From a virus: a stretch of DNA of 30,816 nucleotides. Positions 3 through 21,541 of this stretch are shown piece by piece. The stretch's first letter is position 1; each line of letters starts with the position of its first letter. Location: positions 1 to 30,816 of IMG/VR virus record IMGVR_UViG_3300032156_001461. One strand, written 5' to 3'. Under the pieces are notes generated by a model. It worked only from the letters and a program-made list of their open reading frames with translations. It searched no databases and was not told the origin of the DNA. Both the position numbers and the translations under genes were made by a program.

Positions 3-266
3 ACATTTGCTCATGCCATAGGTTATATTGAAAATGGAGTTCCAATTGCTGTAGCTGGATGGGTATTAGCTTATGTAGATAAAATTTATCCAGCAGGAAC
101 AGCCTTAACTACAGATGACAATGGAAATTTAACTAAAATGCAAAGATGGGAAGTTATGATGTTTCCAGAACGAATAGTGGCTATTTATCAATATAAAGAA
201 ATTTCTTTAATATGGGGTCCAAATAATACGCAAGTAAATGGAAGACATTGGGTTAAAGTTAAATAA
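3..266 (+). CDS. C-terminal end of a tail-fibre/appendage protein with peptidase_G2-like chaperone end (partial)
   Basis: An open frame enters from the left edge and stops at TAA 264-266, giving 87 visible residues. The text around PIAVAGWVLAYVD, the segment MMFPERIVAIY and the final NGRHWVKVK match, from memory, the C-terminal end of peptidase_G2 (intramolecular chaperone) proteins of phage tail appendages and prophages. These often end in a 'YPERIVGTV ... W ... VNGRIWIKVK' pattern. In that family the C-terminal domain helps the fibre trimerise and can then be cleaved off. The catalytic part would lie upstream of the window, so autoproteolysis cannot be judged. The position directly before the accessory operon suggests that operon sits in the tail-fibre region. 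Confidence 0.65.
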   Translation, partial: TFAHAIGYIENGVPIAVAGWVLAYVDKIYPAGTALTTDDNGNLTKMQRWEVMMFPERIVAIYQYKEISLIWGPNNTQVNGRHWVKVK

Positions 267-301: not shown

Positions 302-315
302 GAATGGAGAACTAT

Positions 316-1308
316 ATGCAGGGTATGCTCTCAGTTTTTTTATCATTAATTATTTTCTCGTTAGAAGCTTGGCAAAGAGGATTAGTAACACTTTCTAAAT
401 CAAATATGGTTCCTGATTTTTTTAACTCTTCAGTTGCAATGTATTTCACAGTTGTAGCTTCAACAATCTTTATTATGGGACTTCTGTTAGATAATACTAG
501 TGCAAAAAAATCTATTCTTATTGGAACCATAATTGGCGTTGTTGGAATACTATTGACTCCGTATACAATATATGGATATGGGGTAGTATTTGGTATAGCA
601 GCTGCTTTAATGAAGTTAATTCCATTCTCATCTCCATTAAAGATTTCTACAGGAAATTATGATGGGCTTCTGGTTACTCCACAAGCAGCATCAAAACAAT
701 TGGGTGGCGCATTCTGCATGTTAGTTCTTGGAACGTTTATTATAATGTGGGGTCTTCCTACAACAACAATACTTATTTCTTCATTATTTTGTATTGCTGG
801 TATTGGTTCTTATTTCCTTATACCAAATGTAAAAATAGAAGGATGGAAAATTAATATATTCAAACAACTTTCTATTGATTGGCGATTTTGGTTAATGATG
901 ATTTACTTCTTTTTTATGAGTGGAATTTTTTATGTTGTAGTATCTTCATTTATACCAGCATTAAAAAAGGTTGGTTTTTCAAATGAAGCGTCAATATATA
1001 TGATTGGAATTAGTTATATTGTAAGTGCTATTTTAAAAGTTGGTTCATCATGGTTAGGTGATAAATTTGGCCATTGGATTATGATGACAATTGGAACAAT
1101 TGGAATGTCTTTGTGTTATTTTATCTTACAATACAATCCGGTTTTAGCTGTATGGTTATTTGCTCCATTTTCAACAATGCATACAGCAAACTATTGGGTG
1201 CAATGTAAACAACTTTGGGGACCAAAATATATTGCTACTGTTCTTGGATTAGGATATGTAGCAATGTATATTGGTGCTGGAGTTCTTTACGGAAGGTGGT
1301 CAATATGA
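316..1308 (+). CDS. MFS-type membrane transporter
   Basis: Major facilitator superfamily permease, predicted in the host inner membrane. Hydrophobic segments run through nearly the whole 330 residues (about 10-11 membrane spans). The two diagnostic loop motifs are visible: GLLLDNTSAKK at about 55-65 and WLGDKFGHW at about 246-254, corresponding to the G-x-x-x-D-x-x-(x)-[KR] loop after spans 2 and 8. Typical family members have about 400 residues and 12 spans, so this one is short at the C-terminus. ATG 316 is chosen because GGAGA (306-310) sits six bases upstream; ATG 304 has no ribosome site. The stop overlaps the next start (ATGA at 1305). The substrate cannot be read from the sequence. In an operon of peptide-modifying enzymes, export of a product is one guess and uptake of a precursor is another. 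Confidence 0.8.
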   Translation: MQGMLSVFLSLIIFSLEAWQRGLVTLSKSNMVPDFFNSSVAMYFTVVASTIFIMGLLLDNTSAKKSILIGTIIGVVGILLTPYTIYGYGVVFGIAAALMKLIPFSSPLKISTGNYDGLLVTPQAASKQLGGAFCMLVLGTFIIMWGLPTTTILISSLFCIAGIGSYFLIPNVKIEGWKINIFKQLSIDWRFWLMMIYFFFMSGIFYVVVSSFIPALKKVGFSNEASIYMIGISYIVSAILKVGSSWLGDKFGHWIMMTIGTIGMSLCYFILQYNPVLAVWLFAPFSTMHTANYWVQCKQLWGPKYIATVLGLGYVAMYIGAGVLYGRWSI

Positions 1309-2105
1309 AAGAATTAATTTATTCCTTAGATGATTTACGAGAAATAACTGCTGGTAATATTAATAAACGTTTAGGTATTTGGGTAGTTGGTTCTCATATT
1401 CATAATGGTCATTTAAAGTGTTTAGAAACTGTTAGAAATCAATCAGATTTTGTTTTAGGTGTTTATTTATCTAATTGGTATGCTATGGTTAAAAAGGTTT
1501 ATGGAGTTGCATTACAAAAAGATAAAGAATTTCAATTTGAAACTCTAGATGAAGTTTATAAACTTTCTGATTCGACGTTGGTTCTCTCTGGTAATTATCT
1601 ACCATATGGATCGAGTGATGGACGGATAGCGGATTTATTATACTCAGAGCTTCCAAACTATTGTTTACCAATTTGGATGACAGAAGACGACCAATATATG
1701 GGTTCATTAAGGTCAGGCCAAATGTTTGTATACGTAATTAGGTCAGTATATCCATTTACAGAAATTGCTGGTAGTATAAAAGATCCATGGAAACCATATA
1801 CAGCAAGGTGGTGTTTAGAAAATCAAAAATTTACATATACTATGATTGATCCGGAAACTGACGAATATGGAAACTGCTATTCTTCTCATTTTATTGAGTG
1901 GCAGAGAAACCAAAACTTTAGAATAACATTTCCAATTTTAGAGAAAGGAATGACTAGTATAGAGGATGTTAATTACTACCTACAGTCTAAAGATATTTTA
2001 GGAATTACAGCTGAAACTTTACATTATAATGATGAATATAAGTATTTATATTCTCGTTTGAGATATGGTGAATTTTTTTGGAATGAGGCGAGATATGTTG
2101 GATAA
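1305..2105 (+). CDS. PanC-like nucleotidylyltransferase/ligase (divergent)
   Basis: A 266-residue protein. Residues 24-37 hold a beta strand followed by HIHNGHL, the HxGH ATP-binding signature of the HIGH-type nucleotidylyltransferase superfamily. Near the C-terminal third, D-E-Y-G-N-C-Y-S-S resembles the 'R-E-x-D-G-L-A-x-S-S-R-N' block of pantothenate synthetase. Together these make a distant relative of PanC, which adenylates an acid and joins it to an amine, the best reading. A related gene two positions downstream (3252-4127) keeps more of the PanC motifs. The start at ATG 1305 has GGAAGGTGG (1291-1299) and overlaps the transporter stop (ATGA). The frame is open back to 1215, but nothing there looks like a better start. 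The real substrate is unknown, and a plain cytidylyl- or adenylyltransferase is possible. Confidence 0.55.
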   Translation: MKELIYSLDDLREITAGNINKRLGIWVVGSHIHNGHLKCLETVRNQSDFVLGVYLSNWYAMVKKVYGVALQKDKEFQFETLDEVYKLSDSTLVLSGNYLPYGSSDGRIADLLYSELPNYCLPIWMTEDDQYMGSLRSGQMFVYVIRSVYPFTEIAGSIKDPWKPYTARWCLENQKFTYTMIDPETDEYGNCYSSHFIEWQRNQNFRITFPILEKGMTSIEDVNYYLQSKDILGITAETLHYNDEYKYLYSRLRYGEFFWNEARYVG

Positions 2106-3240
2106 TGTATTTGTTATGTTTCATAAAGATTCTCCAACGTTGTTTGATGTGTCAAATAATTTTCATTTATTTCAAAATGGTTTTTCTCATACTTGGAGTG
2201 AATGCAAAAAACGTGGGGATCTTTTATGGATTAAACATGGTGATGAACTTCCAGTTACTAAAGGTAATATTTTTGTTAGTACTTGGTATAAAGAAGATGC
2301 TATAGAAGCAGAGAGATGGGCCAGAAATAACCAAAATTTAAAAGTGATAATTGGAGGTCCATTATTAACACATTATAATATAAATCTTGGAAAAGATTTA
2401 CTAAATTTCAAACAGATAAAATTTTCTTCTATTGAAGATATTTTTGCCTTTGATTCCAAATGGGGTTTAGAGGTTTTAAAAGATTATGATAGTATCGGAT
2501 ACTCATTTGGAGTTGTAAAAGGAATAGGATGTTATTGGGGTAAGTGTTATTATTGTAAATATCATCATAAACCAGAATATAGAAAATTTGAAGAGATTCC
2601 AATTATTGATTATCCAGGCCACAAATATATTTGGTTACATACATTTTCTATTGAACCAAAAATGATTAGACAAATATATTCTAGGTTACCAGAAAGAAAT
2701 GATGTAAGTTATATGACTTATATGCGAGCTGATAAATCAATTTTAGATTCATTAAAATTTGCTTTTAAAAGAATAAAAGCTCCAACATCAAATTTACTAT
2801 TTGATTTAGGAATAGAAGTTCCAACTAATAGGATGCTTAAATGGATGAGAAAAGGTTCTTCTGTTGAAGAATATCTTGAGTTAATAGAGTTTTTAAGTAA
2901 GAATAATTGTAGGATGCATTTTAATCTCATGACCGATTGGCCTAATCTAATTGAGGATGATGTAAAAAATATTGAAATTTTTCTTGAGAAACTTAAGTTA
3001 ATAGATGGATATGAAAATATCACAGCTAATTTGTATCCTTTACAAGTAGTATATGACAGACCGTTTATGGTTGAATTTGGTGATAATCTTGTTAAAGAAA
3101 AAAATCCTTTTTGGGATATAGATATTTTTCATCCTATTTTAACTAGCAGACAAAGAGAAATAAATGATTCAATAAGAACTCTTTATAGTAATTTTAATTT
3201 TCTTCATTTTGAAGATTTTACTGGAAGACCATTATTTTAA
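2095..3240 (+). CDS. Radical SAM enzyme with B12-binding-like N-terminal region
   Basis: A 381-residue protein. Residues 146-154 read CYWGKCYYC, a cysteine triad with CX4CX2C spacing rather than the usual CX3CX2C. A 'GCxWG...CxxC' form is, from memory, typical of B12-binding radical SAM enzymes that mature RiPPs. The first about 130 residues end in a strand followed by IIGGP (85-89), as in the Rossmann-like cobalamin-binding domain, although no DxHxxG cobalamin-ligand motif is visible, so B12 use is uncertain. Expected chemistry is methylation or another radical modification of a peptide or small molecule. ATG 2095 is preferred over 2065 because GAGG (2085-2088) is six bases upstream. It overlaps the previous gene by 11 bases. 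Next gene follows after a GGAGG ribosome site. Confidence 0.65.
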   Translation: MLDNVFVMFHKDSPTLFDVSNNFHLFQNGFSHTWSECKKRGDLLWIKHGDELPVTKGNIFVSTWYKEDAIEAERWARNNQNLKVIIGGPLLTHYNINLGKDLLNFKQIKFSSIEDIFAFDSKWGLEVLKDYDSIGYSFGVVKGIGCYWGKCYYCKYHHKPEYRKFEEIPIIDYPGHKYIWLHTFSIEPKMIRQIYSRLPERNDVSYMTYMRADKSILDSLKFAFKRIKAPTSNLLFDLGIEVPTNRMLKWMRKGSSVEEYLELIEFLSKNNCRMHFNLMTDWPNLIEDDVKNIEIFLEKLKLIDGYENITANLYPLQVVYDRPFMVEFGDNLVKEKNPFWDIDIFHPILTSRQREINDSIRTLYSNFNFLHFEDFTGRPLF

Positions 3241-3251
3241 TGGAGGAATAA

Positions 3252-4127
3252 ATGCAAACGTTAATAACATGCGCAGCATTAAAAACAGCATGCGGATCAA
3301 ATACAATAGCACAAACTGGTTTCCTTCGAAAAGGAACTAATCAATTACATAGTGGTCATCTTGCTTGCATTAATGCATGTAAATCTGCTGCACAAAAATC
3401 TGTAGTATCTTTCTTTCCACATGAAGAAATTGTAAACTGGTTATATGGAACAACAATACCTATTCCAACAACTTGGGATCAAACATATTGTACAAATTTC
3501 TGTGAAACAAATGGAGTTGATATTGTATTTATTCCTACATTTACAGAAGTAAGAAATACATTTTTTCAAGGAATACTACCAATAAATATAAATAATACAG
3601 TAAACAATATAATTGTAGTAAAAGGATATGGTGGATATAAAGGAAAATTTTTCGATTATATAATTGCAATGGAATATCTAAGAAAACAACGAAATTTGTA
3701 TCCAAAACACTTTGCAATTTTCTCAGTTAAAGAAGGATATCAAGCATTTGCAAGAAAAAACTATTATGAAACAGAATTAAGTATTCCTTGTATTTTAGTA
3801 GATATGACATATCGTCCAGATGGTCTTCCGGAATCATCAACATATTCAAATATGATACAAGCAGATATTGATATCCTTGCGCAAATGTATAATACTATGA
3901 CATCTAAAACCTATGATTATTTAGATGCATTAAATGATTATACAACTTTAACAAACGAACTAAATTCTTTTGACACAAAACCAGTAAAAACAGTATATAT
4001 AGATTATATTAGAATTTGGAAACAAGGAATTATTGGAACAAATAAAATTCTTTTAGAAGCGTCAATATTTCTTAATAATATTACTACATTAGAAAGTCTA
4101 ATAGTTATCAAGGAGCATGGTGTATGA
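3252..4127 (+). CDS. Pantothenate synthetase (PanC)-like ATP-dependent ligase
   Basis: A 291-residue protein with a chain of PanC-type motifs in order. H33-S-G-H36 corresponds to the HxGH ATP site. SVVSFFP at about 50-56 corresponds to 'VVSIFVNP', and GVDIVFIPT at 88-96 to 'GVDxVFAPT'. FSVKEGYQ with K160, E161 and Q164 corresponds to 'FGEKDxQQ'. RPDGLPESS at 188-196 corresponds to 'RExDGLAxSSRN'. The arginine of SSRN is replaced (SSTY) and the pantoate-side residues differ, so the fold and the adenylation step look conserved while the substrate has probably changed. PanC couples a carboxylate to an amine through an acyl-adenylate. Here an amide-forming or acyl-activating step on a peptide or small molecule is a reasonable inference. 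GGAGG (3242-3246) precedes the start, and the stop overlaps the radical SAM gene (ATGA at 4124). Confidence 0.7.
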   Translation: MQTLITCAALKTACGSNTIAQTGFLRKGTNQLHSGHLACINACKSAAQKSVVSFFPHEEIVNWLYGTTIPIPTTWDQTYCTNFCETNGVDIVFIPTFTEVRNTFFQGILPININNTVNNIIVVKGYGGYKGKFFDYIIAMEYLRKQRNLYPKHFAIFSVKEGYQAFARKNYYETELSIPCILVDMTYRPDGLPESSTYSNMIQADIDILAQMYNTMTSKTYDYLDALNDYTTLTNELNSFDTKPVKTVYIDYIRIWKQGIIGTNKILLEASIFLNNITTLESLIVIKEHGV

Positions 4128-5485
4128 TTAATCAATATTTTAAGTTTCCAGTTATTGAAGCGGTTGAATTATTTTCTGCAGGATTTTGTAACTTAAATTG
4201 TACTTATTGTTATATTCCAAAAACTCCAATGTTAAAAGAAATTCATCAAAATATAATTAAAAAAATAGAAAGTGGACAATTTTTAAAAGAATTACAAGAA
4301 ATTTATGGAAATGATTTAACTTCAATTGCTCACTGGGGAACTGAACCAACATTAACAATTCGACAGTTTAAAAATTTTTATAATGAAGCAGTAAAAACTT
4401 TTCCAAAACTAAAAAATATTTCTCTATCATCAAACTTTATGACAAATCCATCTAATTTAGTTACGTTTCTAACAGAAGATTTAACAACAGAAAGACCATT
4501 AGAAATAAAAATACAAGTATCTTTAGATGGGCCTGACTGGATAACAGAAAAGAATAGAGGAACTAATACAACAAAACTAATTATGAACCATGTGATAGAA
4601 GCTACAAAAGAAATTAGTTCAAAAAACAAAGTGCATAATATCCATTTTCATCTAAAACCAACAATTGGCAACGACGATATTTCTACATTATCAAATCTTA
4701 ATAAACTTTCTGAATATTATCAATTTTTTGATGACTTTGTTACAAAATGGTTAGAACAAATTAGTGATAAGAAAACTACTATTTCTAATAATTGTGATCC
4801 AACTGTTGTACTACCATATAATTATACAACAGAAGATGGTATTAATTTTAGTAATTTGATAAAAAATCAGGTGTGTCTTCAACAGAATAAATATAAAAGT
4901 ATTCCGTTACCGGAATCAAATTATTATCAACGAATAAAAGGAAAACTACCATTTTTTAAAGAATTTTTTACAAAACAAAAAATGTTTACATGCTCTTCTG
5001 GCGATTCAATGATTGGCCTTGGTGACAGATCATTTGGAATTCACGCATGTCATAGAACATTTTTTATTGATCACCCACATTATGAAAAGTCAGCAGAACA
5101 ACATCAATTAGACGAACTTACAATGAACGGACTTAAATTAGGACGAAATAAATTATTACTACAAATAAATAGATGCAATTCAACAGATAATCTTTCTGTA
5201 ATAAAAATGTTATATAACAATAGAACCTCAAATGATTTTACTAAACATAAACACTCAATTGGTGTAGCAATGGCAATAGAACTAGCAAAATGTGGACAAA
5301 TTTCAAAATGTTATACAAACGAAAATTTAGCTTATCTTCTAGCTATATTAGTACAAACGACTGATTGTCCAATGGACAATATTGTAACTGCAGGTAGTTC
5401 ACTAATACCTTCATTATCAATGTATCGTCTTTTTGGAAACGGAACTGCAGAGAATATTTTTTCAAGATTATTAAGGAGAATGTAA
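4124..5485 (+). CDS. Radical SAM enzyme, partial SPASM-like C-terminal region
   Basis: A 453-residue protein. C22-NLN-C26-TY-C29 is a canonical CX3CX2C [4Fe-4S]/SAM motif, and HWGTEP at about 70-75 fills the place of the GGEP SAM-binding strand. C290 (TCSSGDS) and C309 (HACHR) lie in the layout seen at the start of SPASM domains ('C..G...i...G....C'). A full auxiliary cluster ligand set (CxxCx5CxxxC) is not seen at the C-terminus; only scattered cysteines follow. It probably modifies a peptide, and the nearest candidates are the two repeat proteins downstream. Start ATG 4124 has AAGGAG upstream and overlaps the previous stop. A paralogous enzyme lies at 6784, on the other side of the repeat proteins. 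Confidence 0.8.
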   Translation: MINQYFKFPVIEAVELFSAGFCNLNCTYCYIPKTPMLKEIHQNIIKKIESGQFLKELQEIYGNDLTSIAHWGTEPTLTIRQFKNFYNEAVKTFPKLKNISLSSNFMTNPSNLVTFLTEDLTTERPLEIKIQVSLDGPDWITEKNRGTNTTKLIMNHVIEATKEISSKNKVHNIHFHLKPTIGNDDISTLSNLNKLSEYYQFFDDFVTKWLEQISDKKTTISNNCDPTVVLPYNYTTEDGINFSNLIKNQVCLQQNKYKSIPLPESNYYQRIKGKLPFFKEFFTKQKMFTCSSGDSMIGLGDRSFGIHACHRTFFIDHPHYEKSAEQHQLDELTMNGLKLGRNKLLLQINRCNSTDNLSVIKMLYNNRTSNDFTKHKHSIGVAMAIELAKCGQISKCYTNENLAYLLAILVQTTDCPMDNIVTAGSSLIPSLSMYRLFGNGTAENIFSRLLRRM

Positions 5486-5970
5486 TGGATACAGAAGAGT
5501 TATTTAAAAAATTATATAAATATATAGATTCATATGAATCAACATATACAATACAGTCTAAGTATAAAGTCAAATTTCATGAATCTATTTCTTTAATGAA
5601 ATCTCATATTGATATCTTAACACAAGACAAAACAATAGAAAATTTTGATTCTACGAAAATACCAGAAATTATTGAAGAATGTATAACTTATTTAAATATA
5701 GTGGTATCAGAAAATAAAGTTAATGAAGAACTAAAGCAATTTTGTTTAGACTATTCTTTTTTAACTGGTAATTGGAATCAAAACGTATTAAAAAGTAATT
5801 CATTAAATTCAAAAATTCAATATATGTTACGAGTGATAAATAATGCATTAACTTTGGATGACAGTTTAAGTATTCTAAAACATTTAAATAACAAACTAGA
5901 AAAACAATTAAATTGGAGACCGCCAGCATTTAAATTAAGTGATCATTATTATAATCTTCTAAAGGAATAA
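5485..5970 (+). CDS. Small alpha-helical accessory protein, copy 1
   Basis: A 161-residue protein of unknown family, predicted mostly helical. Its C-terminal half matches the protein at 8738-9214. Both have NWNQN (about residue 96), similarly spaced helices, then NWxPPA, then a Y-rich end finishing in L-x-KE. So the operon carries two copies, each near one of the two SPASM-type radical SAM genes. The stop-start overlap with the upstream enzyme (TAATG, 5483-5487) suggests translational coupling to it. A role as substrate-presenting or chaperone partner of the enzyme is inference from position and duplication only. No RRE-like winged-helix pattern could be recognised by eye. Confidence 0.6.
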   Translation: MDTEELFKKLYKYIDSYESTYTIQSKYKVKFHESISLMKSHIDILTQDKTIENFDSTKIPEIIEECITYLNIVVSENKVNEELKQFCLDYSFLTGNWNQNVLKSNSLNSKIQYMLRVINNALTLDDSLSILKHLNNKLEKQLNWRPPAFKLSDHYYNLLKE

Positions 5971-5974
5971 AAAT

Positions 5975-6397
5975 ATGGCCTTTGCATGGACAGCAGTTGC
6001 GGTGGGTTCTATATTTACAGCCGCTCATTATAACCAAGTTAAAACAAACACAGATACGCTGTGCAGTAATTTGGGTATAGCAAATTATGGATGGACTCTA
6101 TTTCCAGTTTCTACTGGAACAGATAGATTCGATTATAATGATACTGCAGAACTAAGACTAGCCCTAGATTATGTAAAAGATAACAATGTATGTGTTTCAA
6201 ACAATGCAAATAAAGATACAACTGTAGATAGTGATCAACACACCGGATATTATACTGATAAAGATACAACTGTAGACAGTGATCAACATACCGGATATTA
6301 TACTGATAAAGATACAACTGTAGACAGTGATCAGCATACATCATATAATTCAGGAACAAATGTATCTGCCAATTCAGGTCAAAATACAGGAGTTTAA
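5975..6397 (+). CDS. Repeat protein / candidate modified substrate 1
   Basis: A 140-residue protein. Residues 1-75 contain two copies of a tail-fibre-like module: an aromatic W, then a V-x-x-G-(T/S) turn, then a helix (AHYNQVKTNTDTL and AELRLALDYV). This resembles the 'FxWTxxxVxxGTxIxAxHxxELRxxID' modules found, from memory, in phage and bacterial surface proteins. After DNNVC comes a Thr/Asp/Tyr-rich tail with three 16-residue repeats (KDTTVDSDQHTGYYTD; the third is altered at its end). The repeats hold no cysteine. It lies between two radical SAM enzymes. It is either a RiPP-like precursor (folded leader plus repeated core) or a short virion fibre protein that is modified; the sequence alone cannot decide. 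Confidence 0.7.
   Translation: MAFAWTAVAVGSIFTAAHYNQVKTNTDTLCSNLGIANYGWTLFPVSTGTDRFDYNDTAELRLALDYVKDNNVCVSNNANKDTTVDSDQHTGYYTDKDTTVDSDQHTGYYTDKDTTVDSDQHTSYNSGTNVSANSGQNTGV
6212..6355 (+). repeat. Three tandem 48-bp repeats coding 16-residue units
   Basis: In-frame copies start at 6212, 6260 and 6308. Copies 1 and 2 differ at only a few synonymous positions (gat/gac, cac/cat). Copy 3 diverges after the QH codons. The unit encodes K-D-T-T-V-D-S-D-Q-H-T-G-Y-Y-T-D. The near identity at DNA level points to recent duplication. Confidence 0.95.
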
Positions 6398-6402
6398 ATA
6401 AA

Positions 6403-6774
6403 ATGGGATTTGTATGGGGAGCTTTAGCGGTTGGAAATAAAGTTTTATGGGCACCAAGCGTTCAATTAAGAGAGATGGAAGATAATGCAGATTGGTTAAA
6501 CGACAATCAAGCAAATAGAACTTATAACGCAACTATTGATGCTGTAGCTGATCTAGGAGAAGATGGTACTTTAAATACATCTGTTGATGCTGTAGCTGAT
6601 CTAGGAGAAGATGGTACTTTAAATACATCTGTTGATGCAACTGCTGATATAGGAGAGGATGGATCTTTACTAGTGGGTTACATGAGCGGTTATAATTCAC
6701 CAGTTTATGGTACAAACTGGGCGGCAAACAATCCTTCAAACTATCCTACTTACTGTGCATGTAATGGAAAATAA
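6403..6774 (+). CDS. Repeat protein / candidate modified substrate 2
   Basis: A 123-residue protein. The N-terminus (MGFVWGALAVGNKVLWAPSVQLREMEDNADWLNDN) aligns by eye with the first module of the preceding protein (MAFAWTAVAVGSIFTAAHYNQVKTNTDTLCSN): shared F-x-W-x-A-x-AVG, then Q and a helix ending in N. It is followed by three 16-residue repeats (DAVADLGEDGTLNTSV, the third altered) and a Tyr/Asn/Gly/Cys-rich end (YCACNGK). The repeat length is the same 16 residues as in its neighbour and both contain T-x-V-D, but the rest of the unit differs. GGAG (6390-6393) serves the start. It probably belongs to the same substrate class as the preceding gene, and is the immediate upstream neighbour of the SPASM enzyme. 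Confidence 0.7.
   Translation: MGFVWGALAVGNKVLWAPSVQLREMEDNADWLNDNQANRTYNATIDAVADLGEDGTLNTSVDAVADLGEDGTLNTSVDATADIGEDGSLLVGYMSGYNSPVYGTNWAANNPSNYPTYCACNGK
6538..6675 (+). repeat. Three tandem 48-bp repeats coding 16-residue units
   Basis: In-frame copies start at 6538, 6586 and 6634. Copies 1 and 2 are identical over 48 bases; copy 3 has diverged (ATADIGEDGSL). The unit encodes D-A-V-A-D-L-G-E-D-G-T-L-N-T-S-V. The unit length equals that of the repeats in the gene just upstream, although the sequence is different. Confidence 0.95.
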
Positions 6775-6783
6775 GGAGAATAG

Positions 6784-8100
6784 ATGAATAATCAAGACAA
6801 TGAATTAATAGAAAGTATTTTAAATAGAACTTTCTTTGAATCATGGAAAAATCAAAAATATTTAGAAGATCCTTATAAATATGGAAATTATTCAGAATTA
6901 GAATTACAAGTAACTGCAGCTTGTGATTTAGAATGTAAATATTGCTATTATGCAAAATATTCAAAAGATTTATATCCAGCAAAAATATCAAAACCAAAAA
7001 CAGTTTTAACTAATTTAGATATTATTCTTCAATGGTTAGGAAAAAATTCTCTATACCCAAAGATTTCTCTTTTTTCTGGAGAACTTTTTTCTACAAAACT
7101 AGGTTTCCAGGTTTTAAATAAAGTAATTAACTGGCATATTGAAAATAAAATAAACAACGGACAAATTGTAATTCCTACAAATTTTACATTCATATTTGAC
7201 AAAGAAAAAACAAGACGAATTGAATTCTTTTTAATGAAAGCTGCTATACATAAAATAAAGATTCATTTAAGTGCGTCAGTAGATGGTAAATATTGTGATG
7301 ATAATAGACCATTAAGAAATAAGACAATTAGAGCAGATGAATATTATGATGATTTATTTAAATTTTGTAAAAAATGGAATTTTACATTTCATCCAATGAT
7401 CTATAGTGAAAAGATAGAAAAATGGATAGATAATTTTTTATGGTTTCAAGAAAATTTTGAAAAATATGATATAGATTGGAAATCATTATATTTATTAGAA
7501 GTAAGAAATAAAGAATGGACAAAACAACAATTAAAAGAATTTTATAAATTTATTCGTTTTGTAGTTAAATGGAGTTATGAAAAATCAGGATTATCAAAAG
7601 AAGAATTTCCAAAATTCACTTTTCAAAATAAATTATTTAATCTATTTAGCATGTTCTCAACTACAGGTAGAGGAATTGGATGTTCAATACAATCAACTAT
7701 GCAATTAAGATTAGGCGATTTAACAACAACTTTATGTCATAGAAATTCTTATAAAGAATTAAATCTATTTAAATTTAAAACTGAAAACAATACTATTACA
7801 GGAATTGAAGCAATTAATGTACCTATGTTAATCACAATGTTTTCAACAAAAAGTTCAAATTTTCCATTTTGTGAACATTGTTCAATTAAAGAATTATGTA
7901 GTGGACAATGTTTAGGATCTATGTATGAAATAAATAAAGATAATTTTATTGTAATACCTACTGTATGTGCTTTAGAACATATAAAGGTTGCAGCAATACT
8001 TGACCAATTAAAAGAATTAGATCTATTTCAATATTTTTATAATTTCTCTATACCAAAAAGAGATAGTTTAAAAGTTTACGATAAAGAAATGAGAAGGTAA
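6784..8100 (+). CDS. Radical SAM/SPASM peptide-modifying enzyme
   Basis: A 438-residue protein. C47-DLE-C51-KY-C54 is the radical SAM cluster motif, and SGELF at about 99-103 takes the GGEP position. Near the C-terminus C363-x2-C366-x5-C372-x3-C376-x18-C395 is a SPASM auxiliary-cluster pattern (CX2CX5CX3C plus a later Cys), preceded by a 'GCSIQS...GDLTTTLCHRN' segment that normally supplies further cluster ligands. SPASM enzymes such as anSME and sactionine or epimerase RiPP enzymes act on peptides and proteins. AAGGAG precedes the ATG, ten bases after the repeat protein, so the two are almost certainly cotranslated. The best candidate substrates are the two repeat proteins. The exact chemistry (crosslink, epimerisation, oxidation) cannot be told. 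Confidence 0.85.
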   Translation: MNNQDNELIESILNRTFFESWKNQKYLEDPYKYGNYSELELQVTAACDLECKYCYYAKYSKDLYPAKISKPKTVLTNLDIILQWLGKNSLYPKISLFSGELFSTKLGFQVLNKVINWHIENKINNGQIVIPTNFTFIFDKEKTRRIEFFLMKAAIHKIKIHLSASVDGKYCDDNRPLRNKTIRADEYYDDLFKFCKKWNFTFHPMIYSEKIEKWIDNFLWFQENFEKYDIDWKSLYLLEVRNKEWTKQQLKEFYKFIRFVVKWSYEKSGLSKEEFPKFTFQNKLFNLFSMFSTTGRGIGCSIQSTMQLRLGDLTTTLCHRNSYKELNLFKFKTENNTITGIEAINVPMLITMFSTKSSNFPFCEHCSIKELCSGQCLGSMYEINKDNFIVIPTVCALEHIKVAAILDQLKELDLFQYFYNFSIPKRDSLKVYDKEMRR

Positions 8101-8105
8101 ATTTT

Positions 8106-8741
8106 ATGAATACTATTTATACTTTTGGAGATTCTCATTGTTGTTTTCCATGGGGAGTATTTAACGAAGAAACGAATCAATTTGAGATAAAAACACCAAA
8201 TGTAGTTGTTCCTTTTGACCATGTAATTGGTATACCACAAACTATGTATGAGTTTGGTTTGAGTCGGAAGATTATAGTTGATGATATTCCTGAAGAAGAT
8301 ATAGCTTGTTTTTGTTGGGGAGAAATAGATTGTAGATGTCATATTTATAATCATCAGCCTTGGAAAGAAACAATTGAAAATGTTGTAAAAGAGTATTTAA
8401 CGACTATTCGAGTGAATTCTAAAATACATTCTAAAATATGGATCTTCAATGTGGTACCACCTCTTCAAGAAAGAGATCGAATTGATAGATGGTATGGATC
8501 GCAAAATCAAAAAGTTCCATTTATAGGAACAGACGATGAACGTCTTTCATATGCAAAATATATGAATCAACTTCTTAAAGAATCAGAATTTACTTTTATA
8601 GATATTTGGGATAAGTATTGTAATAAAGATGGATTTCTTATTAAAGAATTAAGTGATGGTAGTGTGCATATTGCAGATAATCGATATTTAGTTGAATGGA
8701 TAAATCAATATAAATTAGGAAATATAGGGGAAAAATCATGA
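8106..8741 (+). CDS. SGNH/GDSL-type hydrolase
   Basis: A 211-residue protein. G8-D9-S10-H11 is the block I nucleophile, W-G72-E-I-D-C-R the block II glycine, N115 (FNVVPP) the block III asparagine, and D184/H188 (DGSVHI) the likely catalytic dyad, with one residue more than the usual DxxH spacing. The GDSH plus GEIDxR form is known from a phage and bacterial branch of the SGNH family, members of which are esterases or acyltransferases. No signal peptide is seen, so it should act in the cytoplasm. In this operon it could remove or transfer an acyl group from a modified product. It ends in an ATGA overlap with the next gene (8738). Confidence 0.7.
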   Translation: MNTIYTFGDSHCCFPWGVFNEETNQFEIKTPNVVVPFDHVIGIPQTMYEFGLSRKIIVDDIPEEDIACFCWGEIDCRCHIYNHQPWKETIENVVKEYLTTIRVNSKIHSKIWIFNVVPPLQERDRIDRWYGSQNQKVPFIGTDDERLSYAKYMNQLLKESEFTFIDIWDKYCNKDGFLIKELSDGSVHIADNRYLVEWINQYKLGNIGEKS

Positions 8742-9214
8742 ATCTTAAAGAAACAATGTGTTATCTTTCACAACAATTGGAAAAACAGCCATCACCTTTT
8801 GAAGAACATCAAATCTTAGAAGATTGTTTTAAAATGATAGAACAAGATATTAATCTATTAGAATCACTTGAAACTTCGTCAAATGATTTTATAGAACGTG
8901 ATATTGAATTAGTAAATAAATCATTATTTATCTTAATTAAATATCTTCTAACAGGAACTCTAGGAAAAGAAACTACAACATTTATAGAAAATATGTCACA
9001 ATTTATATTTAATTGGAATCAAAATATTTCTAAGATACAAACCATTGACCTTTTAACGAAATTAATATTTCAACATATTAATGCAATTGAACAAATAAAT
9101 ATTACAATTTCAACTCTTCAAAAAACAATGGCTATATATCAAGATCTTAGAAACTGGATGCCACCTGCTTATGATATAGCAAAAGTGTATTTTGATGAAC
9201 TTATGAAAGAATAA
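8738..9214 (+). CDS. Small alpha-helical accessory protein, copy 2
   Basis: A 158-residue helical protein, paralogous to 5485-5970 over the C-terminal 70 residues: FNWNQN, then a helical stretch of nearly equal length, then NWMPPAYDIAKVYFDELMKE against NWRPPAFKLSDHYYNLLKE. The N-terminal halves are only loosely similar. It is the last gene of the operon, coupled to the hydrolase gene by an ATGA overlap. The duplication suggests one copy per enzyme-substrate module. No known family recognised. Confidence 0.6.
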   Translation: MNLKETMCYLSQQLEKQPSPFEEHQILEDCFKMIEQDINLLESLETSSNDFIERDIELVNKSLFILIKYLLTGTLGKETTTFIENMSQFIFNWNQNISKIQTIDLLTKLIFQHINAIEQINITISTLQKTMAIYQDLRNWMPPAYDIAKVYFDELMKE

Positions 9215-9784: not shown

Positions 9785-10210
9785 ATGAGATTAAGTTCAT
9801 ATTTAAACTTTATTCAAGAGTTTAAAATTAAAGAAGTTAATACGATGTTATTTAATACATATAGAAAAAATCTATGGTCAAGAAGTTTAGATATTATTGA
9901 AGGGCAAATAGTAAAATTACCTTTTATTGAAGAAGGATATATTTGGGGATCGTTTGTTACTAAAAAACCAAAACCCAATGATGTTGATTTGATTTGTAAA
10001 GTTGATCCAGAAAAAGTTAATATTGTTTTTAGACCCGCAAATAATATAAAAGAAATAGAGGCAAGAAAAGGATTTTTTTCAGAAGATTTAAACACATGGG
10101 TAGATGTTATTTTTGTTGATGGAATTAACTCACTTTATAATTACTACTTTAATTTACATAAGAAAAAATATCCTGGTTCTAAACCAATTAAGATATTTGG
10201 AGAAATCTAG
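9785..10210 (+). CDS. Minimal nucleotidyltransferase-fold protein
   Basis: A 141-residue protein. Residues around 55-72 read GSFVTKKPKPNDVDLICKV, the G-S-x(9)-D-x-D signature of polymerase-beta-like nucleotidyltransferases, and WVDVIFVD at about 105-112 supplies the third acidic strand residue. It starts one base after the preceding stop, with only a weak ribosome site (GGTAA). The internal ATG at 9845 has no better one. Substrate unknown. Such small enzymes occur as toxin or antitoxin partners and as RNA- or protein-modifying enzymes, but no partner domain is seen next to it. Confidence 0.55.
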   Translation: MRLSSYLNFIQEFKIKEVNTMLFNTYRKNLWSRSLDIIEGQIVKLPFIEEGYIWGSFVTKKPKPNDVDLICKVDPEKVNIVFRPANNIKEIEARKGFFSEDLNTWVDVIFVDGINSLYNYYFNLHKKKYPGSKPIKIFGEI

Positions 10211-13877: not shown

Positions 13878-15685
13878 ATGATTATTGGAAAATTTTAGAA
13901 GTTATTCAAGGAGAAACTGTTGAAGATGTAACGAAAGCAGTAGAGGCAATTGCAAACTCAGAGAAGGCAGTATCTGATAGTTATTTTTCAAATATAATAG
14001 ATCAGGTTGCATATATTACAGACGACTATAATAGGTTTAGAAATTTTCTTAGAGATTGGTATGCAAGTTTTAGAACAATAGCTACAGTTCAAACCCAAAT
14101 AACAGATGTTTACTCAATGCCAAATAATCAACTTGATGAGTTATTTCAAAGCTTTGGATATAACTATTCATCTATGTTGAGAGATCCTGTTACAAATGAA
14201 CCACTTTTACAAAAAGTGAATTTCTTTTTAGATTTAGTAAATTTATATAAAATAAAAGGTTCTCCAGAAACTTTAGTTAGGGTCTTACAATACTATGGTT
14301 TTACTGAAGTAGATGTATATGAATATCAACTTCAATTTGATAATAGACCAAATAAAGATTCTAATGATTTAGTATTCAAAGGTAATATAGTAGCGGGAAC
14401 TAGTGGAGACAAAAGTCCTCTTTTTCTTCCTTATGATGAACTTACTATTGGTGATCCGCATTGGTTATATACAGAAAACCAAATACGAACTTTATTTACG
14501 ACAAATAAAATTAACTTTCCTTCAACTTCACCTTATTTTTCAGTAAAGCCAATTTTTGATGAAACAACTACTTATTTAGCAATTGCGTTATTAAGCAGGA
14601 TAATTCAAGATCAGTATTTCGATTGGCAAAGTACTACTATTGTCCCTATTAAAAATGCTATGGCGACAATTACTGGAGATAAGGTTTCAATACTAGCTTT
14701 ATATTTAGCTTGTATTCAAACATTTAATAGAGAATGGTATACTGGTGTTCCTGATATGGGAAACTTTTTATGTTATGATGGAACAATGACAATAGTTACT
14801 GATATTATTGACCAGTATAATGCTATTACAGGAAAACCAAGTAGTAGAGCAGATCAAAAAGTAAAACTATCTCAATATTATGATTTATTTACTAGAGAAG
14901 ATCCAAGAAACTTTTTACAAAATACAACTGATGCCGAAACAATATTGGCTATTCTAGATCCTACGTTTTCGGCAAATCTAAATTCAGTAGCTGAAATAAA
15001 TCCAATTATTCTTGCCAGCTTACTTTCTGATTTAGGTAACTGGGTACGAAGTAATTTAAGCTTTGGATTTATGAATATTAGTTATGCTATATTTGGAATA
15101 AGTGCTCTGTATGCATTATTAAAAGATGTAATTGAATTTTTCAAACCTTATAGAGCAAGACTTGTCCCATTAGAAATGCTAGAATTTAGAAGTAGATTAG
15201 AGAATACAATTATTATTGAAGACGAATTAGATACAATTGATATTTTATTTGATTTTTATGATTATTGTACTGGTGATAGTGCTCCTTGTTGTAGTGATCC
15301 TACTTTAATATGTCCTGACTCTACTGACGCATTACAATATTATTCAAGAGATACCTATGATTGTGGTTCATATTATGATATAGGTATTGTTGTTGATCGA
15401 GACCCATTTATTGAATATTTTGATAACTATAGAGATTCTCTTGTTTGTAGTTTTCAAAACACTGATAGTACTGCGATTGTCACTTCAGAAGTAGTTGAAG
15501 ACTCTACGGCAGTTTATACATACTATCAGAGTGGTGGTTTTGCTAAATTTGATGATGGTGGTGTATTTGATTGTACTACAGGTTTTGATTTAGTATTTAT
15601 TGATATTATTCCAGCATCTACATTATTACTTGAAGATGGTGGAGAATTGCTTCAAGAAAACGGTGATCATATTTTTGTATTCTAG
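13865..15685 (+). CDS. Baseplate/tail protein, P2 gpI-like N-terminal region, TTG start
   Basis: A 606-residue protein. Around residues 80-155 it reads PNNQLDELFQSFGY ... FLDLVNLYKIKGSPETLVRVLQYYGF. This is the layout of phage tail protein I (P2 gpI family): 'P..L..la...g ... ..+lyr.KGT...l...l..lG'. The rest is large and unassigned; residues 455-490 are Cys-rich (YDYCTGDSAPCCSDPTLIC). No ATG fits the beginning. TTG 13865, with GGAGGAG at 13851-13857 and seven bases of spacing, is the best start, and it lies inside the end of the preceding gene. The protein probably belongs to the baseplate or fibre attachment region. Confidence 0.55.
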   Translation: MFTINDYWKILEVIQGETVEDVTKAVEAIANSEKAVSDSYFSNIIDQVAYITDDYNRFRNFLRDWYASFRTIATVQTQITDVYSMPNNQLDELFQSFGYNYSSMLRDPVTNEPLLQKVNFFLDLVNLYKIKGSPETLVRVLQYYGFTEVDVYEYQLQFDNRPNKDSNDLVFKGNIVAGTSGDKSPLFLPYDELTIGDPHWLYTENQIRTLFTTNKINFPSTSPYFSVKPIFDETTTYLAIALLSRIIQDQYFDWQSTTIVPIKNAMATITGDKVSILALYLACIQTFNREWYTGVPDMGNFLCYDGTMTIVTDIIDQYNAITGKPSSRADQKVKLSQYYDLFTREDPRNFLQNTTDAETILAILDPTFSANLNSVAEINPIILASLLSDLGNWVRSNLSFGFMNISYAIFGISALYALLKDVIEFFKPYRARLVPLEMLEFRSRLENTIIIEDELDTIDILFDFYDYCTGDSAPCCSDPTLICPDSTDALQYYSRDTYDCGSYYDIGIVVDRDPFIEYFDNYRDSLVCSFQNTDSTAIVTSEVVEDSTAVYTYYQSGGFAKFDDGGVFDCTTGFDLVFIDIIPASTLLLEDGGELLQENGDHIFVF

Positions 15686-15749
15686 TTTATTTCCTACCAT
15701 ATATATCCTACCTAGAAAAAAACTTATTCATATTAGGTCTGTTTCTTAT

Positions 15750-15769
15750 ATAAAACATATGGGTTTTAT
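15750..15769 (+). terminator. Weak AT-rich hairpin, possible terminator
   Basis: ATAAAAC and GTTTTAT form a 7-bp stem around a 6-base loop, followed by TTAAATTAATT. It lies between a stop codon and the next promoter motif. The stem is weak and there is no long T run. Confidence 0.25.
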
Positions 15770-15775
15770 TTAAAT

Positions 15776-15798
15776 TAATTGAGAACAAAATATAAATT
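15776..15798 (+). promoter_or_regulatory. Late-promoter-like motif
   Basis: AATTGAGAACAAAATATAAATT keeps the GAACAAAATATAAAT core. It is about 30 bases before the chosen start of the metallophosphoesterase gene. Confidence 0.6.
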
Positions 15799-15826
15799 GA
15801 TTTTCATTCTTAATAGGAGGACATAT

Positions 15827-17053
15827 ATGCCTGGACGTTTATTATATCCTGGTCTGATTGAGTTTGTAAAAAAATGTATTGAAGGAAAATTATCAGTAAA
15901 AGAGATATATGATGTAGCAGTATCTAAATTTACTTATGACAAAGATTTAGCAACATTTAGAAGATATGTTTATACTATAAAAAGAAGATATTTAGATTCA
16001 ATTGACCATTCCGATATTAAAAAACAAATAACAAAAGATGAAGCATTTATTTCAGTATTAGAAAGACGCAAAATTATTTCTAGAGATGAAATGTGTGATT
16101 TATTAGAATGTTCATTTGATGAAGTATGCGATTTAATTGGATTTTATAGAAATCAAGGATATGAAATATTAATCGATGAAAGAAATATTATTTTAAGTAC
16201 ACAAATTGCTTCGCAGGGAATACAATTTAAAAGTCCATTGGAAAAGACAGAAATTATTTTTGGTGTTGCTTCAGATCTACATATCGGATCAAAAGAAGTT
16301 CAATTAACGGCATTAAATGAGTTTTGTGAAATATGTAGAAAAAAAGGAGTTAAATATATCTTTGTTCCTGGAGATGTTTTTGCTGGATACAAAGTATTTG
16401 CAGGTCAGGAATATGAAGTTTATGCTATGACTGCAGAAGAGCAGGAAGAGTCAGCTATTGTTAATTTACCTACTGGATTTGAATGGTATATGATGGGTGG
16501 AAATCATGACTATTCATTTATTAAGAAAGGTGGAGGTCATAATCCTTTATTAGCATTGGAAAATAAAAGAGAAGACGTTCATTATTTAGGTTTTGATGAT
16601 GTTGATGTTCCAATTCTTGAAGGAGTTGATATGAAGATGTGGCATCCATCAGGAGGTGTGCCATATGCTCTATCATATAGATTGCAAAAAGCAGTTGAGC
16701 AAATTGCTTATTCAGAATTAGCAAAAATGACTTGGAATAAAAAAGAAGCTCCGAGTATAAGATTCTTGCTAGCTGGCCATATTCATACACAAGTTCAAGC
16801 AATGATTGGTTCAATTTTTGCAGCTCAATGCGGAACGTTTGAAGCACAAAATTCATATTTAAAACGTCATGGATTACATCCAACAGTTGGTGGTTATGTT
16901 ATTAAAGCAGACTTAAGGAAAAAAGATGGAATGATTTTAAATCATGATGCAAAATATTACTTATTTCCAGATGTAATTAGAGAAGATTGGAAAAATTATA
17001 AACATTTTGTTGAGGGAAAAGAAAAAATAAAACCAATTTTCAATGGAAAATAG
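15827..17053 (+). CDS. Calcineurin-like metallophosphoesterase with N-terminal helical domain
   Basis: A 408-residue protein. The four metal-site motifs are present and in order: D150-L-H152, G182-D-V-F185, G225-N-H-D228 and G317-H-I-H320. The first about 130 residues are helical and look like two small helix-turn-helix-type units (KLSVKEIYDVAVSKF; SRDEMCDLLECSFDEVCDLIGFYRNQG), so nucleic-acid binding or oligomerisation is possible. ATG 15827 with AGGAGG at 15815-15820 is chosen; a longer frame from 15779 would start inside the promoter motif. Substrate (DNA end, nucleotide or phosphoprotein) is not readable. Confidence 0.8.
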   Translation: MPGRLLYPGLIEFVKKCIEGKLSVKEIYDVAVSKFTYDKDLATFRRYVYTIKRRYLDSIDHSDIKKQITKDEAFISVLERRKIISRDEMCDLLECSFDEVCDLIGFYRNQGYEILIDERNIILSTQIASQGIQFKSPLEKTEIIFGVASDLHIGSKEVQLTALNEFCEICRKKGVKYIFVPGDVFAGYKVFAGQEYEVYAMTAEEQEESAIVNLPTGFEWYMMGGNHDYSFIKKGGGHNPLLALENKREDVHYLGFDDVDVPILEGVDMKMWHPSGGVPYALSYRLQKAVEQIAYSELAKMTWNKKEAPSIRFLLAGHIHTQVQAMIGSIFAAQCGTFEAQNSYLKRHGLHPTVGGYVIKADLRKKDGMILNHDAKYYLFPDVIREDWKNYKHFVEGKEKIKPIFNGK

Positions 17054-19576: not shown

Positions 19577-21541
19577 ATGGCTACAAACGTATCTCCGGGC
19601 GTATATACGAAGATAATTGATTTATCAGCATTCGTTCAAGCTGCCCCAGCGACAATTGGCTTCATTACTTCTATAACAGAGAAAGGTGAAGACAACGTTT
19701 TAAAATTTGTTGGTTCTAGATCAGATTTAATTAGTGAGTTTGGTGAACCAAATATTACAACTTATGGTAAAAGTTATGGTCAAGGATTATATTGTGCATA
19801 TAACTTTTTAGGTGAGTCAGGAGCTCTATATTTCTTGAGAGTTCTTCCAGATGACGCAGCTTTTGCAAACATGAGAATTGATGCATTATTTGGAACAACA
19901 GATACATCTGCTGCATTTCAAGTTACTTCAATTTCAAGTATAAATACAAAAGCAGAACTAAAAACAAATTTAGCAGATATTCCACCAACTCAACATCCAT
20001 TGTGTTTCCTTTATCCAATTGGAAGAGGACAATATTACAATAAATTATCTTTAAGATTAACCGAAGTTGCAAATCCATTACTTGATGGAGTTTATGTTCT
20101 AGATTTATATGAAAAGCAATCAGATGGTGATGATGTTATTATTGAATCATTCCAAGTATCTTTTGATCCAACATCAAGAGATTTAGCAGGAGATTCATTA
20201 TTTATTGGTGATGTTCTTGCTATGTATTCTAGTGTTTTAAGAGCAGAAATGCAATTAACAAATGAAGCATATTCACCTGGTTATTTTAAAGTTGTTCATA
20301 TTTACGATAAGAATGTTGGTTCAGTAACTGCCGATATTGGTTCTGGAACAGCAGAAATTACAGACAATAAACAAGATTTTTCAACTTGGGATAAACAACC
20401 AGAAACAGGTTATGCTAATTATGTTGTTATTGCAAAAGATGCAAAAGGTGTAGAAATTTGGGGTTGGTTAGGTTCATCAACCGGTTATACAGATAATGCA
20501 GGATGTAATGTTTTTAATATAAGAGATTTAAGTACAGCTACACGAGCATGGAATGGTAATACTACAGATTTTGATGTTAACTCAGAAATTGTTTATACAA
20601 TTAAAGAAGCTTATGGTAGTGTTGCAGATGCTTTTACTTCTGCTGAACCAGTTCCATTAAAAAGAGGTAGTGATGGTAGTTTACTAGATTCAGTGGGTAA
20701 TCTTGACCCATCAGAAGCTACAACTTTATTAGCTCAAGGTTATGCTGGAATAATCGACGATACAGTTTTAGATACTGAAAATATTTATTATACTTTAGTA
20801 TTTGACTGCGGTTATCCAACAGATGTTAAAACACAAATTAGCACTCTTGTTCAAACAAGAAGGGACTGTGTTGGTATTCTTGATAATGGAGATAACTCTT
20901 CTGTTAATAATGCTTTAGCAAAAAGAAATACGGATCATACATTTAATACTTTTTATCTAGCAATATATGAATGTTATAATAAAGTGTTCGATGCATTTAC
21001 TGGTCAAGATGTTTGGTTCTCACCGATTTATCATATATCATATCTTGCTCCAAGAAATGATAGTGTAGCAGAACCTTGGTTTGCAATCGCTGGTTATAAT
21101 AGAGCAGCAATTGACACAATTAAAGACTTGAGATTCAATCCAAGATTGGGTCAAAGAGATCAACTATACAGAAAACAACTAAACCCAATAGTTAAATTTA
21201 ACCCAGGATATGTAGTCTGGGGTCAATTGACAACTCAAGCAAAACCAAGTGCATTACAAGACCTAAATATTGTTAGATTAGTACTTTATGTTAAGAGAGC
21301 ATTTGAAGACTTCTGTAAGTTCTTTATTTTTGAACAAAATGATGAAATTACTTGGGGTCAAGTATCAGCACAACTAGTTGCATTCCTAGAAAATATTAAG
21401 AGTAGAAGAGGTCTATATAGTTACTCAGTAGAAGTTGGAGCTTCAGATTATGAAAAGAAAACAAAGAAATTTCATATTAATATTATTCTACAACCAACAA
21501 GAGTTGTTGAACAAATTGAACTAAACTTCTATATTCAATAA
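19577..21541 (+). CDS. Tail sheath protein (T4 gp18-like)
   Basis: A 654-residue contractile tail sheath subunit, close to the 659 of T4 gp18. The N-terminus MATNVSPGVYTKIIDLSAFVQAAPATIGFI is the typical sheath beginning ('SPGVYxxEID.S'), and GDDNVLKF-like text up to the YFLRVLP segment belongs to the conserved sheath core. The C-terminal 150 residues (NIVRLVLYVKRAFEDFCKFFIFEQND ... LYSYSVEVGASDYEKKTKKFHINIILQPTRVVEQIELNFYI) are the conserved sheath C-domain that wraps the tube. It shows the phage has a contractile tail. GGAGG is ten bases upstream. The tube gene is not next to it, because a minus-strand cassette lies between. Confidence 0.92.
   Translation: MATNVSPGVYTKIIDLSAFVQAAPATIGFITSITEKGEDNVLKFVGSRSDLISEFGEPNITTYGKSYGQGLYCAYNFLGESGALYFLRVLPDDAAFANMRIDALFGTTDTSAAFQVTSISSINTKAELKTNLADIPPTQHPLCFLYPIGRGQYYNKLSLRLTEVANPLLDGVYVLDLYEKQSDGDDVIIESFQVSFDPTSRDLAGDSLFIGDVLAMYSSVLRAEMQLTNEAYSPGYFKVVHIYDKNVGSVTADIGSGTAEITDNKQDFSTWDKQPETGYANYVVIAKDAKGVEIWGWLGSSTGYTDNAGCNVFNIRDLSTATRAWNGNTTDFDVNSEIVYTIKEAYGSVADAFTSAEPVPLKRGSDGSLLDSVGNLDPSEATTLLAQGYAGIIDDTVLDTENIYYTLVFDCGYPTDVKTQISTLVQTRRDCVGILDNGDNSSVNNALAKRNTDHTFNTFYLAIYECYNKVFDAFTGQDVWFSPIYHISYLAPRNDSVAEPWFAIAGYNRAAIDTIKDLRFNPRLGQRDQLYRKQLNPIVKFNPGYVVWGQLTTQAKPSALQDLNIVRLVLYVKRAFEDFCKFFIFEQNDEITWGQVSAQLVAFLENIKSRRGLYSYSVEVGASDYEKKTKKFHINIILQPTRVVEQIELNFYIQ

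Follow-up and report, generated by a model that had tools for sequence, protein, structure and literature searches.

A recurrent phage cassette combining two radical SAM enzymes with tetrapeptide-repeat proteins next to tail-fibre genes

The bacterial His-Xaa-Ser cluster (HxsA/HxsB/HxsC/HxsD), reportedly described by Haft and Basu, is said to consist of a repeat protein, two different radical S-adenosylmethionine (SAM) maturases of the SPASM type and a small helper. HxsB and HxsC have been named putative maturases of the His-Xaa-Ser motif, and in a second system, TvgA/TvgB, a precursor with TVGG tetrapeptide repeats is repeatedly modified by a radical SAM enzyme (cyclopropylglycine) (PMC9062424). 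Here we analysed the IMG/VR viral contig IMGVR_UViG_3300032156_001461 (positions 1 to 30,816, a stretch of 30,816 bases, hereafter the window), in which a run of genes at 304-9214 encodes two repeat proteins and two different radical SAM enzymes, which we call rSAM-A and rSAM-B. A preliminary description of this DNA had proposed that the phage carries a system for modifying short repeat proteins, either of the virion or secreted. This proposal gains support from the placement of the enzymes and from their co-occurrence with the repeat proteins, which was near-universal when checked across loci. We consider that the cassette probably serves the maturation of tail-associated, hypervariable repeat proteins by rSAM-A and rSAM-B, with a helical protein as their partner, and we give this reading, drawn from sequence comparison and structure prediction, a probability of about 0.6. 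The genes in the window which carry it are as follows:

5975..6397, plus strand: repeat protein 1, with a doubled N-terminal domain (residues 1-72), a conserved Cys73 and then tetrad (four-residue) repeats.
6403..6774, plus strand: repeat protein 2, with a single N-terminal domain and then tetrad repeats.
4124..5485, plus strand: rSAM-A, a core radical SAM enzyme with Cx3Cx2C and three invariant C-terminal cysteines.
6784..8100, plus strand: rSAM-B, a core radical SAM/SPASM enzyme with a complete seven-cysteine SPASM set.
5485..5970, plus strand: helical protein A (core), with the motif NWN...PPAFELSxHYL.
8738..9214, plus strand: helical protein B, a paralogue of helical protein A.

The core, consisting of two repeat proteins, rSAM-A, rSAM-B and the helical protein, was found at 36 distinct loci once duplicate contigs had been collapsed: 33 viral contigs, including the window, and 3 contigs from metagenome-assembled genomes (MAGs). 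These were collected with profiles built from successively larger alignments; single-sequence scans of viral contigs were too narrow (no locus for rSAM-B, one for rSAM-A) and the family was opened up by two-sequence and then nine-sequence profiles. Because the core recurs in 36 loci, the gene set is far beyond chance. rSAM-A and rSAM-B were found together in all 36 loci (adjacent in 35, with one gene between them in L049), and the helical-protein family was detected by hidden Markov model (HMM) in 31, the misses being L006, where the contig ends too early, and four loci which have a short gene at the same place (L039, L042, L048 and L049). Open reading frames (ORFs) scoring > 17 for tetrads were present in 31 of the 36 loci, compared to a maximum of 10.9 for shuffled ORFs and 15.6 for the best ORF outside the module, and all 53 ORFs which scored > 25 lay within ~ 1.7 kb of the enzymes. 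The preliminary description had treated eleven genes as one set; the co-occurrence holds, but for the core of repeat 1, repeat 2, rSAM-A, rSAM-B and helical protein rather than for all eleven.

The commonest gene order was repeat - repeat - rSAM-A - rSAM-B - helical. In the clade of the window (window, L002, L014 and L073) the order was rSAM-A - helical - repeat - repeat - rSAM-B - helical, and in L020, L022 and L041 the repeats were found downstream. L002, which was found by the rSAM-A scan, is a contig of 49% GC with a terminase/portal-like head region (judged by eye). Its cassette reads fibre - major facilitator superfamily (MFS) permease - PanC1 - PanC2 - rSAM-A - helical - repeat 1 - repeat 2 - rSAM-B - helical, which is the order of the window, with enzymes and permease at 25-51% protein identity to those of the window; it contains neither the CX4CX2C radical SAM gene nor the SGNH-like gene. 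Three of the carrier phages are recoded (TAG = Gln in L041 and L033, TGA = Trp in L034) and their copies look fragmented, the module being open only in each phage's own code.

The core is rare in cellular genomes: a one-per-species collection contained three strong loci, and among the relatives of two MAG hosts the module was present in one genome out of 300 and one out of 25. L048 has the appearance of a Clostridia prophage, with tail genes upstream and a lysozyme-like gene downstream (by eye). In isolate phages and plasmids we found no module, with two "Bacteriophage" records that had weak matches left uninspected. We did not count L085/L086 or the weak matches L050-L072 in genome contigs (identity 21-34%, for the most part incomplete), taking them for generic radical SAM proteins. 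Individual copies also had peculiarities: rSAM-A of L044 is split over two overlapping ORFs (2955-4311; a frameshift or sequencing error), the gene between rSAM-A and rSAM-B in L049, a Peptococcaceae MAG contig, is copper-amine-oxidase-N-like and transglutaminase-like (6139-7632, minus strand; by eye), and a ClpP-like protease gene (by eye) lies downstream of the cassette in L014 (13349-13930).

Common to the repeat proteins is an N-terminal domain (MxFxWTxxIxxGxxIxxxxxNEIRxNxD) which ends in a conserved Cys and is followed by the repeat tract, where the tetrads have the consensus [SATG][TSG][YVDH][DNY]. The period of four is strict: in a circular HMM the log-likelihood was -16060 with one state and -13567 with four, compared to about -16000 with three, five or seven. 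All 40 of the 40 proteins have the conserved Cys at the third position of the register, and there were 12 register slips in 4,658 residues. The tetrads themselves alternate, with lags 8, 16 and 24 above tetrad-shuffled controls and lag 16 the strongest (z = 8.6 with the window and L002 left out). The two repeat proteins of the preliminary description are borne out: in the window each of the two repeat genes contains three 48-nt tandem units, and lag-16 identity in these repeats had z = 11.7 and 11.5. The superperiod might come from a solenoid in which every coil takes up four tetrads. The repeat proteins of L002 are much longer (390 and 368 aa) and the longest product was 505 aa. A gp5-like octad beta-helix (PF22178, E = 0.02) was considered and dropped, as the repeat turned out to have four residues per unit, in the pattern small-small-bulky-bulky. 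In the AlphaFold model of repeat protein 1, the predicted local distance difference test score (pLDDT) was 83-93 for the N-terminal domain and about 33 for the repeat tract; the model is compatible with a disordered tract and with one which folds only once modified.

Hypervariability is limited to the repeats, with the enzymes and N-terminal domains constant. Between L010 and L082, identity was 87% for rSAM-B, 93% and 80% for the N-terminal domains, and 34% and 30% for the repeats, the shuffled-tetrad baseline being 32%. Other pairs were similar, but the repeats of the closest remaining pairs retain 43-51%. The cassette usually lies right after tail-fibre genes, and those upstream genes which could be classified were tail fibres, central tail fibre J or DUF2793 fibre proteins. 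Two repeat proteins have a Laminin_G_3/concanavalin-like (lectin-like) domain before the tetrads (3e-16 and 8e-15). Constant machinery, variable repeats and a fibre context would be the expected look of a variable receptor-binding part of the tail, and of the two destinations first proposed for the repeat proteins, virion or secreted, it is the virion, in adhesion, which is better supported. Group 1 glycosyltransferases are encoded directly downstream of the core in L024 (11879-12865) and L020 (13084-14082), and glycosyltransferase-like genes (by eye) are also found in L009, L080 and L041; further decoration of the repeat proteins is possible.

Both enzymes have invariant cysteines. In rSAM-A, C22, C26, C29, C290, C309 and C415 were kept in 35 of 35 full homologues, all of which have Cx3Cx2C; the only further invariant cysteines are the last three, which may serve an auxiliary cluster of SPASM or twitch type. 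In rSAM-B, Cx3Cx2C and C300, C318, C363, C366, C372, C376 and C395 were found in 36 of 36 homologues, and the SPASM model TIGR04085 matched 5 of 9 members. The nearest curated models of the two enzymes are the maturases PapB, GrrM/OscB, YhhB, AmcB, SCIFF and HxsB. NCBIfam PapB matched both 4124-5485 (1e-12) and 6784-8100 (8e-14), far under its curated cut-off, and the window proteins missed the curated NCBIfam cut-offs for PapB (51.6 bits vs 340), GrrM (44.8 vs 310) and HxsB (29.5 vs 370); matches to the HxsB model were weak (window rSAM-A 3.1e-7, best rSAM-B 5e-10). In a PDB sequence search the nearest solved structures were peptide-modifying radical SAM enzymes and sulfatase maturases, with rSAM-B matching the peptide-modifying structures at 4e-10 to 9e-10. 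The rSAM-A and rSAM-B distance matrices were correlated (mirror-tree, r = 0.84 over 35 loci, permutation maximum 0.40) and therefore both enzymes travel together; they co-evolve. When checked for an origin in housekeeping pathways, the enzymes grouped with peptide-modifying SPASM enzymes instead.

SPASM maturases accompanied by repeat precursors are typical of pathways for ribosomally synthesised and post-translationally modified peptides (RiPPs), a label which the preliminary description had used. In a true RiPP pathway the repeat proteins would be precursors from which, after modification and cleavage, small peptides with a bioactive or signalling role leave the cell while the phage infects or is lysogenic, and the MFS permease of the window and an M24 metallopeptidase adjoining the L073 copy would suit such a scheme. 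We nevertheless find it quite unlikely: at most loci the core has no transporter or protease, MFS permeases accompany it in two phages only, the cassette follows tail-fibre genes, and the products, some of them with lectin-like domains, reach the 505 aa given above. We therefore keep the RiPP label as an analogy only, as a protease is missing, most loci are without an exporter and the products can be some 500 aa long.

The two helical proteins of the window are paralogues, as first described. AlphaFold modelled helical protein A as an all-helical bundle (pLDDT 90), and a search of this fold against the PDB gave no significant match. The idea that it is a winged-helix RiPP recognition element had no support from the PDB fold search.

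Under the reading of tail-protein maturation, two short tail-associated proteins would be made, each anchored to the tail-fibre complex by its N-terminal domain and each carrying a long hydrophilic tract of register-locked tetrapeptides. The helical protein would probably aid as a substrate-binding partner or chaperone, while rSAM-A and rSAM-B would travel along the tract and install carbon-centred modifications, either intrachain crosslinks or epimerised residues. The modified repeat may then be a rigid, protease-resistant and sequence-variable rod or solenoid which serves as a tail adhesin. More speculatively, the extra genes of the window's clade (PanC-like, radical SAM, MFS and SGNH-like) might decorate the product further, with methyl, acyl or amide groups, or bring in a building block. 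For the more specific proposition, in which the two radical SAM enzymes turn tetrapeptide tracts into crosslinked or D-residue rods and so make a virus-encoded hypervariable adhesin whose scaffold tolerates near-unlimited sequence change at constant fold and with constant enzymes, we see roughly even odds. Cyclophane chemistry for all members was dropped, as aromatic residues are nearly absent from the repeats of L002.

It should be noted that several observations weigh against this reading. Positions 2 and 3 of the tetrad are too variable for one known side-chain chemistry to fit all members, so that the chemistry may be backbone-centred (epimerisation), act on small residues or be a side-chain-tolerant form of crosslinking. 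The N-terminal domain matched no known virion domain in PHROGs, Pfam or a fold search of repeat protein 1 against viral models, where nothing was significant; its only matches were weak (phrog_25353, function unknown, 8.4e-4), and its identification with a known virion domain was rejected as unsupported by these searches. There is no recognisable recognition element, and the helical protein matches no known fold. Two loci have repeats unlike tetrads, namely L039 (7561-8565), with a 9-residue period (z 11.9), and L047 (1689-2102, repeat 2), with a 3-residue period (z 5.2), and in L025 and L049 we detected no repeat substrate nearby; the enzymes may thus have broader or other targets. This last point would favour a different account, in which the target of the radical SAM pair is a host component or a different protein of the virion, such as the tail fibre encoded upstream, and the repeats are unmodified, disordered spacer or display proteins which simply accompany the pair. 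We regard this as unlikely, since tetrad ORFs are near-universally adjacent to the module and exclusive to it, and since the upstream genes vary widely among loci while the repeats and enzymes stay together.

The remaining genes of the run, preceded by the fibre gene, are as follows:

3..266, plus strand: C-terminal part of a tail-fibre-like gene with its 5' end off the contig; an HMM of the window and L002 copies matches the L014 fibre at 2e-52.
304..1308, plus strand: MFS permease, accessory (PF07690 4.7e-14, 52.5 bits vs a gathering score of 33.4).
1305..2105, plus strand: protein with an HxGH nucleotidyltransferase-like motif (the earlier PanC1), accessory, 30% identical to L002 8299-9087.
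2065..3240 (start maybe 2095), plus strand: radical SAM protein with CX4CX2C, accessory, seen only in the window.
3252..4127, plus strand: PanC-like ligase (PanC2; PF02569 4.5e-7, 29.7 bits vs a gathering score of 20.7).
8106..8741, plus strand: SGNH-like protein, accessory, with GDS and DxxH motifs only.

All eleven ORFs of the preliminary description are present at 304-9214 on the plus strand and are tightly packed, with ATGA overlaps at 1305, 4124 and 8738 and TAATG at 5485. Its MFS permease and its three radical SAM enzymes (2065-3240 with CX4CX2C, 4124-5485, and 6784-8100 with the full SPASM cysteine set) were borne out. Of its two PanC-like ligases, 3252-4127 was upheld, and 1305-2105, the ATG of which (1305) lies within the ATGA overlap, has the HxGH motif only: it had no match in Pfam, NCBIfam or PDB, an hhalign probability to PanC2 of 0.3%, and was found only in the window and in L002. 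Its SGNH hydrolase has the motif and no Pfam or NCBIfam match; 8106-8741 matches phrog_13881 (1.9e-4, function unknown). The 2065-3240 protein had weak matches only (TIGR04014, B12-type radical SAM, 5.2e-6; PhpK family, 1.8e-4) with no B12-binding Pfam match, and is possibly a radical SAM protein of the cobalamin type.

The window MFS is 40% identical to that of L002, the only other carrier in the viral scan, and a viral scan for PanC2 found it confined to the window, L002, L014 and L073; since the homologues in the latter three fall below the PF02569 gathering score, we call it PanC-like and not PanC. As MFS is limited to the window and L002 and PanC2 to the window's clade, these are accessory genes. 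Together with the SGNH-like gene and the additional radical SAM gene, the MFS and PanC-like genes are extras specific to a lineage. In L073, the M24 metallopeptidase gene (15364-16107; PF00557 3.8e-35) lies immediately after PanC2. The PanC family match of 3252-4127 and the MFS match could also be taken to mean that the radical SAM, PanC-like and MFS genes are auxiliary metabolic genes which boost pantothenate/coenzyme A metabolism of the host, their late-region position being incidental. This is very improbable, given that PanC and MFS are restricted to one small clade, that the core enzymes score with peptide maturases and not with metabolic enzymes, and that nearly all of the cellular genomes searched are without them.

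The virion-gene neighbourhood of the cassette was confirmed as a contractile-tail structural region, with the sheath (PF04984/PF17482) at 19577-21541 and gp25 (PF04965) at 26275-26712. A fibre gene related to 3..266 precedes the cassette in L002 and L014, and the L014 relative matches tail-fibre PHROGs. Directly after the cassette the window encodes a DUF6932/nucleotidyltransferase-like protein (9785-10210; PF22014 5.4e-9), and outside the core there is a fourth radical SAM gene with three small genes (22894-23886, minus strand; PF04055 3.6e-9).

The diversity of phage adhesins is usually credited to recombination, domain swapping and diversity-generating retroelements. To our knowledge, virion proteins are rarely regarded as substrates of dedicated phage-encoded radical enzymes, and we know of no earlier virion protein that is matured by radical SAM chemistry. 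The gene set suggests that part of the apparatus by which these viruses recognise hosts is chemically remodelled, in a manner not described before. If this is true, radical chemistry would help to build the host-recognition apparatus, and the product would be a hypervariable adhesin which is encoded by the virus and made post-translationally. The 33 viral contigs, which include contractile-tailed, other tailed and recoded phages, point to a step in the maturation of tail proteins that has so far escaped study, probably under anaerobic conditions. The cassette supplies dozens of natural candidate enzyme/substrate pairs with a simple tetrad code, making it a good system in which to study the action of SPASM enzymes on long repeats and to make stiff, protease-resistant peptide rods, and it offers candidate functions for viral-metagenome families now labelled merely "radical SAM" or "hypothetical".

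No described phage system with this gene set was known to the preliminary description, and this stands: nothing in NCBIfam, Pfam, PHROGs or PDB matched these families, their occurrence in phages or their association with tail fibres, and no paper describing the system was found in a literature search that did not cover preprints and many subscription papers. Essentially the sole matches in phage isolates were radical SAM proteins of Campylobacter phages of the CP220 type, which are 21-25% identical to rSAM-B; however, these have no rSAM-A, repeat or helical partner and lie in another neighbourhood. In Campylobacter phage CP220 itself (L013), the radical SAM protein (6983-8086) is encoded near a nucleotidylyltransferase-domain gene and a portal gene. 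The PapB-type ranthipeptide maturases and the GrrM, YhhB and AmcB cyclophane maturases are the nearest curated models and belong to the same superfamily, sharing the SPASM cysteines with rSAM-B, but the best matches of the window proteins reach 38-52 bits against cut-offs of 310-445, and the candidate substrates in phages are long virion-type proteins with few cysteines and often few aromatic residues. TvgA/TvgB is the sole precedent we found for repeated radical SAM modification of a tetrapeptide repeat; it differs in being bacterial and in having one enzyme with a dioxygenase and peptidase/transporters, whereas the phage repeats are not TVGG and are often without Val. The His-Xaa-Ser system is the closest known kind, its architecture being similar in that one repeat protein is accompanied by a pair of dissimilar radical SAM maturases and by a small helper. 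The phage cassette departs from it in having tetrads (rarely 3- or 9-residue units) in place of His-Xaa-Ser tripeptides, another helper, an HxsB score far below the cut-off (29.5 vs 370 bits) and a position beside tail-fibre genes, so that radical SAM maturation of repeat proteins has here apparently been turned to virion proteins.

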